Below are positions 6,830 to 12,008 of a DNA stretch of 54,158 nucleotides, in pieces. Numbering within the stretch: the stretch's first letter is position 1; each line of letters begins with the position of its first letter. Under the pieces are notes generated by a model that did no database searches, was not told the DNA's origin, and worked only from the letters and a program-made list of their open reading frames with translations. Origin of the DNA: Parcubacteria group bacterium GW2011_GWC2_48_17 (GTDB taxonomy: Bacteria; Patescibacteriota; Minisyncoccia; Phycocordibacterales; UBA10002); assembly GCA_001003605.1 (NCBI GenBank), contig LCPL01000004.1:1-54158 (forward strand). The letters are read 5' to 3'. The position numbers and the translations under genes were made by a program.

Positions 6830-9769
6830 CTAAAAGCTAGAACCTAGCAGCTTTTTCAGGCGGCACCACTCGCAGTCGGGTTCGGCGCAGGTTTTATCCC
6901 AAAATGACAGTGAGAGAATTTGTTTGGAGACATCAATTATAAGTGTCTTTAGATCGGCGACTTCGACATCGGTTATTTCAAAGACTTCGCGGCGGTAATG
7001 GCCTCGCTGGTCGGGTTTGATAAAGTCAATCGTGCCGGTTTTCATTCGCCACTTCCCGATTCCCTCAATGAGAAGCCGATAAAAGACGAGCTGGCGTTTG
7101 TAATTGCTATCGCTCCCTTTTGTTTTACCATCAATTTCATTTCGGCTTTTCGGTTTGCCAGTTTTATAATCAACGACATTAACCGAACCGTCGGGTAAAA
7201 GTTCCACTTTGTCCAATTTGCCATTCAAAGAAATTTCCCGGCTGGCCGAAATCTTAAGCGGTATGCCGGCAATTTTGTACTCATTCCAAATTGTTCGTGA
7301 AAAATTAAAGTGGGAAAGATATCCTTTAAGTTCCCGCTCACCTTCTTTGAGATGAGTTTGAAATTCTCGCTCGCTTAAATGGGTACGGCGAAGAGTTCCT
7401 TTGAAAAATTCAAGCGTCTTTTTAATGGATAGGTCTTCTTCCCTTCGGTAAGCGTCAAAATAAACTTTGAGGGCGCCGTGAATCGCCGAGCCGTAGAGAA
7501 GCGCCGGAGTTTTGGACTTCGGGAGCCGAATTAAATCCATGAAGAAATACCGCCACGGACATTTGAGAAAATTGTTTAGGTGGGTTACTGACAGTCCTCT
7601 CTCCACAAAAAGCGTCTGGAGGTATTTTTTGTCGGCAAAAAGTTTTGGCGGAGAGACGACAACTCTACGGTGAAGCGGTTTCGGACTGATTGTTTTCTTC
7701 GTTTGATGTTTCTCCGAAATTTCCTCCAAAAACCGGCTGGGCAAACGCTCCCGACCGTCGTCGCCGCGAAGATGATATGAAACCGTTACATCCTTTCTTG
7801 CTCTCGTAAGCGCCACATAAAATAGCCGTCGTTCGTCTTCCGTTTCGTGGTCTTCCGCGCCACCCGGAAGTGGCAGTTTGAAAATCTCGCGGCTTCGTCT
7901 GCCGCCCCACACACCATCGTTCGCGTGTAAAATAAAAACGCTCTCAAACTCAAGTCCCTTGGCGCGGTGGGCGGTCATAACGACAACGCCGTCTAAAATT
8001 CCCGCCTCGGCCGATATGGATAAGCCATGCTCGCGCGCCTCCGCCAAATATTCCAAAAAATCTTTCACGAGCGCGAGTTTATTTCGCTCGGCAAATCGCT
8101 CAACCGCGCGGAGCAAACTTTCATAAAGCGGAAGAAGTTCGGAACTCTCGTTTAACGAAATAAGATGGAAAAGATAGCCGGATTCTTCAGCGATTTTGCT
8201 CCAGCCGGCAACCAGCGGTTCATTGCGAGCTATTGACGCGAAACGGGACAGTTTAGCGACGAATCCGCCTAACGCACCGCGTTTCATTTCAAAAATAACT
8301 CCGCGCCGATTTTCCCTCGCATTTTCCAGAAGGGCAAAAACCTCGTGGGGCTCAAGATTAAGAAAATCAAAGAAAAGAACTGGCGCCAGTTTTTCGTCGC
8401 TCGGCGCAATCACTGCCTCTAAAAATTTTAAGAACGCGTCAAGCCGAACGTGGGAAAGCGCGTCGGCATTTGAAAATTTCGCTACTGGCACGCCCGCAGC
8501 TCGCAGTACCCGCTCAACCGAATCGGCGTTTTTGTTTTCGCGGACGAGAACGGCGATTTCTCTCGGCTCCGCACCGCCTTTGATTCGCTTTTTTATTTCT
8601 TCCGCGACGAACGCGAGCTCTCCGACTTCATCGGCTACCTCCAAAACCAAAACGCGGCGCGGCGCGAAGTTAACCCCGTCAGAAGCAAAGGCACGCTGCG
8701 AGCCCTCGCGGCTTCTAACGGGGTTAACGGCGGAACGAAGCGGGAAATGGGTTTCTCCAACAGCTATTTTGTTTTGGCTGATAAGCGAATGAGCGGCGTC
8801 AAGAATTTTCTGATGGGAGCGGTAATTTTCCTCAAGGGTAATTATCTGCGCTTTCGGAAACAATCGCCTGAAATACAAGAAGTTTTCAAGCGAGGCGCCC
8901 TGAAATCGGAAAATTGCCTGCTTCTCATCTCCGACGATAAAAAGGTTTGGGCTTGCGTGATAACTCGCCAAAAGCTCGAGAAGCCGATTTTGCGCGTTGT
9001 TGGCATCCTGATGTTCGTCGGCAAGAAGGTAGTGATAATTTTCCTGCAGGAGAAGGAGCAACTTCTTGTCGCGCTCAAGCACCCGAACCGTTTCCATAAT
9101 CATATCCTCAAAGTCATAGAGCCGCTTTTTTGCAAGCGTGCGCTCGTAAGCGGCGTATACGCGGGCAAGTTCCTTGTTTTTGTCCTTGTTGCGTTGTCTC
9201 TCGGCGCGCTTCCCAGGCGCGTTCCTTTGATTCGCTTCCATCGTCTCCGTACGCACGAGCGCTTGAAATTGCTTCGGAGAAATGTTTTCCCGCTTGAGTT
9301 CCTTTATGGCCGATATCACCGGCTTGACATAGTACGACGGGTCGTTTTTAGGGCGCAATATGCGGAGCGGGAGCGTGTTTAAGAGCTCCTGGACAATCCG
9401 AACCTGCTCTATCTCCTCCATGTGAGAGGCGCCGATAATGCGCGCAAAGCGATCGGGATGCTCCTTAATCACGCCATTGCAAAAACTGTGAAAGGTGTGA
9501 ATCGGCACCTGATACGCCACGGGGCCCACGAGGCGCGAGAGTTTCTCGCGCATCGCGTGCACCCCGGAATCGGTAAAGGTGAGCGCGAGAATAGCGTCCG
9601 GCGGCGTGTCGGTCTTTCGGAGAATGTTTGCGATGCGAAGCGTGAGCACCGTCGTCTTCCCCGTCCCCGGGCCCGCGATTACCATCACCGGCCCCTCAAT
9701 CGCCTCCATTGCTTCCTTTTGCTTCGGATTCAGCTTTTTATATGCCTCTTTGAATGCAGTCTCGGACAT
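6830..9769 (-). CDS. UvrD/PcrA-type helicase with C-terminal PD-(D/E)XK nuclease domain
   Basis: Superfamily 1A DNA helicase, 979 aa from the ATG at 9769. Seen: Walker A GPGTGKT (about 33-39), motif II DEHQD, EENYRSH, MTAHRAKGLEFE and YVALTRARK, then a C-terminal RecB/Cas4-like nuclease domain with VVDYKTGK. The last segment has a Cys cluster, CAEPDCEWC, as in iron-sulfur RecB-like nucleases. A role in recombination or repair is expected. The 39 upstream codons pass through a palindrome and are not part of the protein: TATACT lies 6 nt before this ATG. Residues 348-367 are encoded by an in-frame 60-bp palindromic insertion. Divergent from the LexA-methyltransferase gene. Confidence 0.93.
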   Translation of the reverse strand: MSETAFKEAYKKLNPKQKEAMEAIEGPVMVIAGPGTGKTTVLTLRIANILRKTDTPPDAILALTFTDSGVHAMREKLSRLVGPVAYQVPIHTFHSFCNGVIKEHPDRFARIIGASHMEEIEQVRIVQELLNTLPLRILRPKNDPSYYVKPVISAIKELKRENISPKQFQALVRTETMEANQRNAPGKRAERQRNKDKNKELARVYAAYERTLAKKRLYDFEDMIMETVRVLERDKKLLLLLQENYHYLLADEHQDANNAQNRLLELLASYHASPNLFIVGDEKQAIFRFQGASLENFLYFRRLFPKAQIITLEENYRSHQKILDAAHSLISQNKIAVGETHFPLRSAVNPVRSREGSQRAFASDGVNFAPRRVLVLEVADEVGELAFVAEEIKKRIKGGAEPREIAVLVRENKNADSVERVLRAAGVPVAKFSNADALSHVRLDAFLKFLEAVIAPSDEKLAPVLFFDFLNLEPHEVFALLENARENRRGVIFEMKRGALGGFVAKLSRFASIARNEPLVAGWSKIAEESGYLFHLISLNESSELLPLYESLLRAVERFAERNKLALVKDFLEYLAEAREHGLSISAEAGILDGVVVMTAHRAKGLEFESVFILHANDGVWGGRRSREIFKLPLPGGAEDHETEDERRLFYVALTRARKDVTVSYHLRGDDGRERLPSRFLEEISEKHQTKKTISPKPLHRRVVVSPPKLFADKKYLQTLFVERGLSVTHLNNFLKCPWRYFFMDLIRLPKSKTPALLYGSAIHGALKVYFDAYRREEDLSIKKTLEFFKGTLRRTHLSEREFQTHLKEGERELKGYLSHFNFSRTIWNEYKIAGIPLKISASREISLNGKLDKVELLPDGSVNVVDYKTGKPKSRNEIDGKTKGSDSNYKRQLVFYRLLIEGIGKWRMKTGTIDFIKPDQRGHYRREVFEITDVEVADLKTLIIDVSKQILSLSFWDKTCAEPDCEWCRLKKLLGSSF
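8669..8728. repeat. 60-bp palindromic insertion inside the helicase gene
   Basis: Arms GTTAACCCCGTCAGAAGC and GCTTCTAACGGGGTTAAC match at 17 of 18 positions. The unit is exactly 20 codons long and in frame (residues 348-367). It falls between helicase motifs, in a region where family members normally have a short loop. Confidence 0.8.
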
Positions 9770-9776
9770 ATCGGGA

Positions 9777-9823
9777 GTATACCCCCACACCAACTTTGTT
9801 CCAAAGTTGGTGTGGGGGTATAC
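9777..9823. repeat. 47-bp perfect inverted repeat between divergent genes
   Basis: 22-bp arms with a 3-base loop; each arm starts GTATACCCCCACACC when read from outside. The left end contributes to the TATACT -10 of the helicase (9776-9781). It fills the divergent promoter region between the helicase and the LexA-methyltransferase gene, so it may act as an insulator, terminator or operator. Confidence 0.9.
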
Positions 9824-9873
9824 CTGTGGACAACTGCTCGTGTTTTGCTCGGTTATTTTGCTATACTGGTTGC

Positions 9874-11382
9874 ATGCTGACCGCACGACAAAAACAGATA
9901 AAAGATTTTGTCACCAAAATCATTAAGCAAAAAGGTATAGCACCTTCAGAGCGTGAAGTTGCCCGTCATTTTCGTATTTCCGCCTCCACCGCACATCAAC
10001 ATCTGGAAACATTGAAAGAGAAAGGGTACCTGCAAAAAGACCCGCGTCGCGCACGGGGAATTGAGGTTACAGAACCGAACAACGAGAAGTTAGTTCTTAT
10101 TCCTTTACTTGGCTACATTACCGCAGGACAATTACAAGAGGCTATTGAGACTCGAGAAACTATCGCCGTGCCGCAAAGCAAACTCCCCTTCCCCAGCGGA
10201 AATTACTACGGGCTGCGCGTTTCCGGCGACAGTATGGTCGGAAAAAACATTAGTGACGGAGATATAGCGCTTGTTAAAAAACAAAACACGGCTAAGAACG
10301 GAGAGAATGTGGTGGCGCTTGTTGATAACACTGAAACAACTCTTAAAACCTTCTACAAGGAGAGAGGCCGTATTCGTCTCCAACCGGCAAACAAAAATCA
10401 CGAACCGATTATTGTGGAAAAAGATACCCCGTTTGAGATTCAAGGGATAGTAGTTGATGTGATTGGTCGTGAACCTCCTAAATATGAAGTGGGGAATGTT
10501 TCTATACAGTCTACGATTCAAAACAAAAAACTACCGCTCAACAAGATAATTCTTGGAGACGCTATAAAAGAACTTCAGAAGCTACCCGATAATAGTTGCG
10601 ACATTGTTATTGCCGACCCCCCTTACAACATTGGTAAAGATTTTGGAAATAATCTGGACAAAAGAGAACTGACAGAATATGTAAGGTGGTGTAAAAGCTG
10701 GATTAATGAATGCATTCGGACGATGAAGCCGTCAGGTACAATGTTCATTTATGGCTTTAGTGAAATCTTAGCCCACCTTTCCGTTGAGATTCCTTTGCAA
10801 AAACGCTGGCTGATTTGGTACTATACAAATAAAAACGTTGCTTCGCTTAATTTTTGGCAAAGAAGTCACGAAGCTATAATTTGTGCATGGAAGGAAAAGC
10901 CTGTTTTCAACAGGGACGAGGTCAGAGAGCCTTACACGGAGGGCTTTTTGAATGGAGCGGCTGGAAGGATGCGGAAAGGAACTTTAGGAAGATTTAGTAG
11001 CAGCGGATTAGAAACTGTCTATAAAGCACACGAGGGTGGAGCCTTACCGAGAGATGTCATAAAGATTCCTGCTCTCGCCGGTGGAGCCGGAATGATCGAG
11101 AGGTGGTTTTTGTGCAAGACTTGCGATGGTGTCTACGAACCACGACAATTAAAAAATCATGACGGGCATGAAATCTTGAAACACCCAACACAAAAACCAC
11201 TTGAGCTATCTAAAAAATTGATAAAATCCGCTATGCCGAAAAAAGAGGGTGTTGTGCTTGTGCCGTTTGTTGGTAGCGGTTCGGAATGTGTCGCAGCAAA
11301 AGAATTGGGACAATCATATCTTGGCTTTGAAATTAATCCGGATTACATCAAGATTGCCAAGCGTGTAATTTCCTCAATGTAG
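9874..11382 (+). CDS. LexA repressor fused to a site-specific DNA methyltransferase
   Basis: 502 aa in one uninterrupted frame. Residues 1-65 are a LexA winged helix (MLTARQKQIKDFV...). Ala84-Gly85 matches the self-cleavage site. The S24 peptidase domain has SGDSM (Ser120) and a Lys at 158. A linker of about 20 residues (200-220) leads to a DNA N-methyltransferase: catalytic DPPY at 249-251 and flanking residues, HPTQKPLELSKKLI at 437-450, and SAM-binding PFVGSGS at 464-470, with DPPY first as in the beta class. A CKTC/H/H cluster (414-432) may bind zinc. Start: ATG with TATACT 6 nt upstream. LexA represses SOS genes until RecA triggers cleavage; here cleavage would separate the DNA-binding part from the methylase. 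I infer coupling of methylation to DNA damage. Confidence 0.9.
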   Translation: MLTARQKQIKDFVTKIIKQKGIAPSEREVARHFRISASTAHQHLETLKEKGYLQKDPRRARGIEVTEPNNEKLVLIPLLGYITAGQLQEAIETRETIAVPQSKLPFPSGNYYGLRVSGDSMVGKNISDGDIALVKKQNTAKNGENVVALVDNTETTLKTFYKERGRIRLQPANKNHEPIIVEKDTPFEIQGIVVDVIGREPPKYEVGNVSIQSTIQNKKLPLNKIILGDAIKELQKLPDNSCDIVIADPPYNIGKDFGNNLDKRELTEYVRWCKSWINECIRTMKPSGTMFIYGFSEILAHLSVEIPLQKRWLIWYYTNKNVASLNFWQRSHEAIICAWKEKPVFNRDEVREPYTEGFLNGAAGRMRKGTLGRFSSSGLETVYKAHEGGALPRDVIKIPALAGGAGMIERWFLCKTCDGVYEPRQLKNHDGHEILKHPTQKPLELSKKLIKSAMPKKEGVVLVPFVGSGSECVAAKELGQSYLGFEINPDYIKIAKRVISSM

Positions 11383-11405
11383 CAACTTTGCAAAATATCT
11401 TACCC

Positions 11406-12008
11406 TTATCCGATTGTCTTAATATCTTCCATTCTGATTGACAACCGTTTGTTGTAAACAAGGAGTTGTTCCAAAAGCAATTTACTACTCTTACCAGGAG
11501 GAACAAGGACTGAAAAACCCCATTCTATTAACTTTTCTATCCCGACATTTTGGGTTGAACGGCTACCCTTTTTCCTGTTTTTAACTCTCTTGAGAAGATA
11601 CTCTCCCAATTTTTCACTTTGGCCAAAGACAATAAACTGTAAATCACTAGCGCCACGCCAGACAGCAATCGCTGTAAAAAGTCTCTTGTCAGAGAATGCT
11701 TTTGCTTTCTCTATATTTGTATCGTTCCAAGTTCCTCCCCACCTTTTAGCAGATAAGCTACACTGCTTTACCTCAAGAAATTCACCAGTTCGGTTCCTTT
11801 TTGCGTCAAAACCGTGTTTCTCAGTGTTAATGAGCTCGAAACCTAAATAACTTGCGACGATAGTATCTCGAATTGAGTTAATAGTCGTGTCAGTGTCGTA
11901 AACACTAAATTTTTCCTGAAATTCAGATAATTGTTGTAGTGCTAATAGACCTTGCTGTTTAAATTCATTTGACAAGGATTCAAATTTTCCCTTTTCGAAA
12001 ATGTGCAT
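11406..12008 (-). CDS. probable type II restriction endonuclease
   Basis: 200 aa, convergent with the methyltransferase gene and ending 23 bp from it. A PD-(D/E)XK-like core is seen: GFDAKR (Asp68), then GEFLEVKQ (Glu79, Lys81), preceded by a helix with TINSIRDTIVASYLGFELI. Position next to a solitary DNA methylase, small size and the D-ExK pattern support a restriction enzyme. I cannot assign recognition sequence or subtype. Base composition is more AT-rich than the neighbouring housekeeping genes, consistent with horizontal gain. It could instead be another PD-(D/E)XK nuclease. Confidence 0.6.
   Translation of the reverse strand: MHIFEKGKFESLSNEFKQQGLLALQQLSEFQEKFSVYDTDTTINSIRDTIVASYLGFELINTEKHGFDAKRNRTGEFLEVKQCSLSAKRWGGTWNDTNIEKAKAFSDKRLFTAIAVWRGASDLQFIVFGQSEKLGEYLLKRVKNRKKGSRSTQNVGIEKLIEWGFSVLVPPGKSSKLLLEQLLVYNKRLSIRMEDIKTIG

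Follow-up and report, generated by a model that had tools for sequence, protein, structure and literature searches.

The window analyzed in this study, a 54,158-nucleotide stretch from Parcubacteria group bacterium GW2011_GWC2_48_17 (contig LCPL01000004.1), contains a gene in which LexA is joined to a DNA methyltransferase and, tail-to-tail with it, a gene for a candidate restriction endonuclease. The features of the locus are listed in Table 1. The open frame of the fusion spans 9754 to 11382, and LexA homology begins at the ATG at 9874. An earlier note, made from the sequence, had described this frame as a complete LexA followed by a beta-class methyltransferase, and profile searches bear the description out. 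Specifically, Pfam assigned residues 2–62 to LexA_DNA_bind (2e-16), 77–194 to Peptidase_S24 (1.8e-27) and 243–496 to N6_N4_Mtase (1.3e-36), and all residues that the note had named were present. The NCBIfam model TIGR00498 (lexA) gave 169.9 bits against a cut-off of 110.95, which places the protein within LexA by a curated threshold, and PADLOC classified it as MTase_II (2.2e-49). The catalytic motifs of the fusion are intact, and the DPPY and FVG[ST]G methylase motifs are kept in orthologues. Note that the alignment-free AlphaFold model of the whole fusion had a pLDDT of 36.6.

Table 1. Features of the LexA-methyltransferase locus in the window
Feature	Position	Strand	Evidence
DnaA-box-like element TGTGGACAAC, just upstream of the operator	9825..9834	+	consensus TGTGGATAAC in 71% of relatives
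Predicted LexA operator GCTCGTGTTTTGCTCGG, GCTCG-TGTTTT-GCTCGG, direct repeat of period 11	9836..9852	+	
-10-like box TATACT, 6 bp before the ATG	9862..9867	+	inferred
LexA-methyltransferase fusion, 502 aa, modification enzyme	9874..11382	+	domain matches, orthologues
LexA winged-helix DNA-binding domain, residues 1-62; recognition helix SASTAHQHLETL	9874..10059	+	Pfam LexA_DNA_bind, covariation
S24 autoprotease domain, residues 77-194	10102..10455	+	Pfam Peptidase_S24
Cleavage site Ala84-Gly85	10123..10128	+	
Ser120	10231..10233	+	
Lys158	10345..10347	+	
Beta-class N6/N4 DNA methyltransferase domain, residues about 220-500	10531..11373	+	
DPPY, residues 248-251	10615..10626	+	
FVGSGS, residues 465-470	11266..11283	+	
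Tail-to-tail junction of modification and restriction genes, 23 bp	11383..11405	.	
Restriction endonuclease candidate, 200 aa, PvuII-like PD-(D/E)XK	11406..12008	-	AlphaFold/Foldseek, family alignment
K81 (PD-(D/E)XK residue of the endonuclease candidate)	11766..11768	-	
E79 (PD-(D/E)XK residue of the endonuclease candidate)	11772..11774	-	
D68 (PD-(D/E)XK residue of the endonuclease candidate)	11805..11807	-	

The protein encoded convergently to the fusion (family P0002) gave no match in Pfam, NCBIfam or PADLOC. An AlphaFold model built on an alignment of five relatives had a pLDDT of 84.9, and the twelve best Foldseek matches to it in the PDB were all PvuII endonuclease (best E 1e-4, probability 1.00), with TM by target of 0.30–0.62, a moderate structural match. 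As D68, E79 and K81 are invariant across the five-member family as well, the PD-(D/E)XK-like protein that had been noted 23 bp from the fusion is, by its predicted fold, a candidate PvuII-like endonuclease. All three P0002-type enzymes found in 384 genomes of the class face a LexA-methylase, and a search for P0002 in plasmids and viral contigs gave no match.

The endonuclease gene follows rpoD by 30 bp. Because rpoD and a UvrD-family helicase-nuclease gene are adjacent in the relatives L232, L234 and L240, the cassette is read here as an insertion between these two genes, and a cassette acquired in this way would face an establishment problem, namely cutting of its own host. A 45-bp near-perfect inverted repeat (TATACCCCCACACCAACTTTG..CAAAGTTGGTGTGGGGGTATA) at 9778–9822 separates the helicase gene from the fusion promoter, and one similar copy of it was found elsewhere (G000:C2:12368); it could be either a terminator or a small mobile repeat. 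At G000:C28:1376–2554 the genome encodes another RpoD-like sigma factor, which has diverged to 56% identity with that of the window. The window is strongly depleted in GATC (observed/expected 0.19; ACGT 0.50), which suggests another restriction pressure in the genome. The value for TCGA is 0.69, a modest avoidance that is weak as a sign of specificity, and TCGA as the target of the window's pair is a low-confidence guess by analogy with the TaqI-type partners described below.

Distribution of the fusions and their partner genes

Searches of relatives and of GTDB contigs recovered about 17 full-length orthologues (65–71% identity) in independent Patescibacteria assemblies, the hosts including Giovannoni-, Taylor-, Campbell-, Yonath-, Nomura-, Kaiser-, Jorgensen- and Yanofskybacteria. 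Given these full-length orthologues, we regard the fusion as an evolved gene and not as a read-through. The note had named a frameshift or stop between residues 200 and 220, or homologues that are always separate genes, as observations that would speak against its reading; instead, the same in-frame fusion was found in about 17 assemblies. An assembly artefact or a chance read-through that joins two neighboring genes, a concern that draft metagenome assemblies raise, is ruled out by this recurrence and by about 100 further fusions.

To survey the class, a profile of the LexA part was run against 384 genomes (sampled by draw, with the longest ORFs as gene calls), and a fusion was counted when its frame had at least 440 residues. 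This search found 88 LexA fusions in 70 of the 384 genomes, with up to four in a single genome, and most of the genomes sampled were without any. Outside the class, about 17 more were found among 380 genomes spread over the phylum, and several of the genomes that bear them also hold a separate standalone LexA of about 200 aa. After removal of duplicates, 100 fusions were examined, 97 of which had the full LexA domain. Classified by motif, the C-terminal parts of these 97 were beta (66), TRM11-like N4 (11), C5 (11), D12/alpha (5) and gamma N6 (4). The class label switches at least 10 times on the LexA tree, indicating that LexA and methylase modules were exchanged repeatedly.

The next gene downstream is convergent in 86 of the 97 fusions having downstream sequence, at a spacing of -21 to +85 bp, and the commonest arrangement is an overlap by 4 or 9 bp, usually of the stops; in the other 11 loci the next gene lies on the same strand, without a convergent partner. 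The architecture and its convergent neighbor, which the earlier note had proposed to look for in other genomes, therefore do recur. The partners belong to 26 sequence families, and those that are recognizable are restriction enzymes: representatives above the Pfam cut-offs matched RE_TaqI (4.7e-38), MvaI_BcnI, BglII, BsaWI, endonuclease VII/His-Me and Bsp6I, and several of the representatives scanned had no Pfam match. In some loci the methylase chemistry presumably suits the nuclease family, as for C5 with Bsp6I and the N4 type with MvaI/BcnI. Of the 86 loci, 21 have a small C-protein-like HTH gene ahead of the endonuclease (HTH_3 1.9e-10 for L039). Methylases orthologous to that of the window stand convergent either to RE_TaqI enzymes or to members of the P0002 family. 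TaqI-type enzymes were present in 14 of the 384 genomes; in 12 of these the locus has a full LexA fusion, and in the other 2 the enzyme faces a methylase that has the LexA DNA-binding domain alone. The methylase motifs, the PvuII-like neighbor and the RE_TaqI partners of the orthologues uphold the view of the locus as a restriction-modification locus, and its assignment as a Type II cassette is well supported, with the window's own nuclease assigned by predicted fold.

When the fusion (P0001) was compared with phage and plasmid records, its methylase or LexA halves matched separately, and no record covered 80% of it. One viral-classed contig, L242 (IMGVR_UViG_3300045144_000341), has a LexA-methylase fusion whose convergent partner is 305 aa long, and given this contig such cassettes may travel on phages. 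Other arrangements of LexA proteins from the clade of the fusions were also seen, and standalone members, too, occur beside restriction-modification genes. The second LexA of the genome, L080 (G000:C11:35042-), is a standalone protein with its own TTAGG-type operator, and downstream of it stand a methylase gene of the Eco57I/TaqI type and a C5-methylase-like ORF. In L158 and L167, the place of the methylase is taken by a second C-terminal DNA-binding (excisionase-like) segment. At L171:1731–3110, the gene 18 bp behind a standalone LexA of the clade encodes DpnI (PF06044, 2.2e-77); this methyl-directed nuclease is possibly under damage control.

A predicted operator at the fusion promoter

Upstream regions of the fusions in relatives carry a period-11 direct repeat adjoining a TATAAT-like box. 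A repeat of this period matching at 6 or more of 7 positions was found in 95.3% of 107 fusion-clade upstreams vs 17% of 499 control upstreams, which had been cleared of duplicate fusion loci. Periods of 9, 10, 12 and 13 showed no excess over background in the same 107 upstreams, and upstreams of the endonuclease genes were at background for the period-11 operator (18%). Given the position of its -10-like box, the fusion transcript is possibly leaderless.

The half-site of the repeat follows residue 42 in the recognition helix: Phe or Tyr goes with TTCTA (44/45), Gln or Glu with TTCGG or CTCGG (41/41, counting sites of either type) and Lys with TTCGC (3/3), and the TTAGG half-site goes with helices having PT or VT instead of ST. 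Mutual information between helix and half-site was above that of all 20,000 shuffles, a statistic that is weakened by the relatedness of the sequences; about 7 independent switches were counted on the best tree, and the 2 on well-supported branches were both in the expected direction. That the LexA part binds its own promoter had been proposed before, and a predicted operator at the -10 box whose half-site covaries with the recognition helix supports the proposal. The LexA part thus very probably represses the fusion's own gene, as judged from these sequence patterns. The geometry of the operator resembles the direct-repeat LexA/SOS box of Caulobacter, GTTCN7GTTC (PMC9578287). For the Patescibacteria, a phylum of tiny uncultured bacteria on whose gene regulation hardly any data exist, it suggests a type of LexA box.

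The window operator is the single exact match in the 1.03-Mb genome, and a regulon search of the genome allowing 2 mismatches gave as many matches as a reversed-pattern control. The pattern expected of LexA as a global SOS regulator, with operators at several damage genes, is therefore not seen in this genome. The DnaA-box-like consensus TGTGGATAAC was present in 76 of 107 fusion-clade promoters vs 3 of 499 controls, mostly 11–12 or 20–25 bp upstream of the LexA operator, and may tie the supply of methylase to replication.

Conservation and loss of the autoprotease

Ala84, Gly85, Ser120 and Lys158 are intact in all 97 fusions, across the five methylase classes, while only 14 of 197 columns are invariant in the 107-member LexA set. 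That these four residues are kept while most columns vary is our main argument that self-cleavage matters. None of the 97 had a dead S24 domain; where the domain is not kept, it has been deleted whole. Specifically, in L209 and L217 the same methylase stands beside a TaqI-type enzyme with the LexA DNA-binding domain alone, the S24 domain being gone, and the operators fit their own helices (TTTCTA for HFH and TTAGG for PTIHEH). L045 is a methylase without LexA and without the operator. These patterns indicate that operator and DNA-binding domain occur together and that the S24 domain is a separable addition.

A recA gene is present in the genome, and the sequence is consistent with RecA-triggered cleavage of the fusion. 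At G000:C19:679–2562 (L048), RecA positions 3–198 and 195–262 lie about 1.1 kb apart in one 735-aa frame, so that this recA appears to carry an in-frame intein.

Discussion

We consider it likely that the fusion is an SOS-cleavable, autorepressing modification enzyme of a Type II system, in which damage feedback favors self-protection over cutting. A LexA dimer on the direct-repeat operator over the methylase promoter would hold methylase synthesis at a set level. RecA filaments, including those formed at breaks made by the cognate endonuclease in under-methylated host sites, would then induce LexA to cut itself at Ala84-Gly85. By analogy with LexA biology, the cut would part the DNA-binding domain from the S24-methylase and so break up the repressor dimer; repression of the promoter would then be lifted and methylase output would increase, and the released methylase domain would presumably stay whole. 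Since the endonuclease gene is convergent and abutting, the burst of methylase transcription might in addition run antisense into it and lower restriction, a conjecture from gene geometry. Convergent promoters that can repress are described for EcoRI and Eco29kI (PMC12707154). According to PMC3874152, restriction-modification imbalance and post-segregational killing induce the SOS response, and the loop would hence turn self-cutting into more protection.

The LexA part could instead be an autorepressor and dimerization domain alone, as in the EcoRII, SsoII and Ecl18kI methylases, with self-cleavage a relic that has no role. L209 and L217, which lack the S24 domain and keep the DNA-binding domain with a matching operator, fit this explanation, as does the point that known HTH-methylase fusions need no cleavage (PMC12707154). 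A relic, however, would hardly account for a cleavage site and Ser/Lys dyad intact in 97/97 fusions of five methylase classes among mostly variable columns, or for an S24 domain that is either kept or deleted whole, and we judge this explanation unlikely. Far less credence is due to the idea that the fusion acts as the general SOS repressor of the cell, with the methylase as a passenger. The full TIGR00498 equivalog and the Caulobacter-like operator geometry (PMC9578287) would favor it, but the genome holds one exact operator, with 2-mismatch matches at the control level; moreover, a separate standalone LexA exists beside the fusion in genomes outside the class, some genomes have up to four fusions, and the fusion is absent from most genomes of the class.

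A further alternative reverses the sign of the response: damage would signal infection, and loss of the intact fusion would unmask the endonuclease or lower methylation, so that cleavage turns restriction on. Other defense systems are induced by DNA damage, and in the apparent operon of standalone LexA and DpnI (L171) derepression would indeed raise a nuclease. In the fusion, however, the cut would leave the methylase domain whole, and because it is the methylase promoter that bears the operator, which the endonuclease promoter lacks, derepression should raise the methylase; this alternative therefore seems improbable to us. A wider form of the favored reading, that of a cleavable repressor-methylase, is that LexA serves Patescibacteria as a portable damage-sensing regulator for restriction-modification systems with at least five methylase classes, in which breaks made by the partner endonuclease would drive methylation up and, by convergent transcription, restriction down. 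We find this form plausible but stop short of favoring it. If true, it would amount to a rheostat of autoimmunity, which has not been described in any restriction-modification system. How restriction systems spare their own host on entry, after replication or after damage is a long-standing question, and an SOS-cleavable repressor-methylase would answer it directly, since cutting by the endonuclease would itself bring about stronger protection. The operator code is readable, and natural variants with a full LexA, with its DNA-binding domain alone or without LexA make the circuit testable in E. coli.

Comparison with known systems

A published description of a LexA-methylase fusion was not found among 5.39 million open papers searched in full text. 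The passages searched in reviews of restriction-modification regulation cover HTH-methylase repressors, C proteins, C-endonuclease fusions and antisense control, with no LexA fusion among them. The earlier note had called the arrangement unfamiliar, and to this extent it stands; the arrangement is, however, no one-off, as it recurs with methylases of five classes and with restriction enzymes of many families. Its statement that known restriction-modification control uses separate C proteins was incomplete, since autorepressing HTH-methylase fusions are known for EcoRII, SsoII and Ecl18kI (PMC12707154), as are C-endonuclease fusions of the PvuII type (PMC3850674).

Like the EcoRII, SsoII and Ecl18kI methylases, the protein studied here is a modification enzyme with a fused domain that has a predicted operator at its own promoter; unlike them, it carries a whole LexA with the autoprotease in place of a bare HTH, and its relatives extend over five methylase classes. 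L209 and L217, with the DNA-binding domain alone, most resemble that known type. With C-protein systems and C-endonuclease fusions, it shares a dedicated transcription factor and the fusion of a regulator to a restriction-modification enzyme, but here the regulator has a LexA fold instead of an XRE fold, is on the methylase and is potentially damage-sensing. No separate small XRE activator gene is present at the window locus, which accordingly does not qualify as C-protein-controlled. The winged helix, cleavage site and Ser/Lys dyad are those of LexA/S24 repressors such as host LexA and phage CI-like proteins, from which the fusion differs in its C-terminal catalytic methylase and in that it appears to control one locus, its own gene. 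As in TaqI- and PvuII-type systems, the partner nucleases are RE_TaqI enzymes or, by model, PvuII-like, whereas here the methylase carries LexA and the genes stand tail-to-tail. Since a methylase-repressor fusion as such was already known, the new part appears to be the self-cleaving LexA module.
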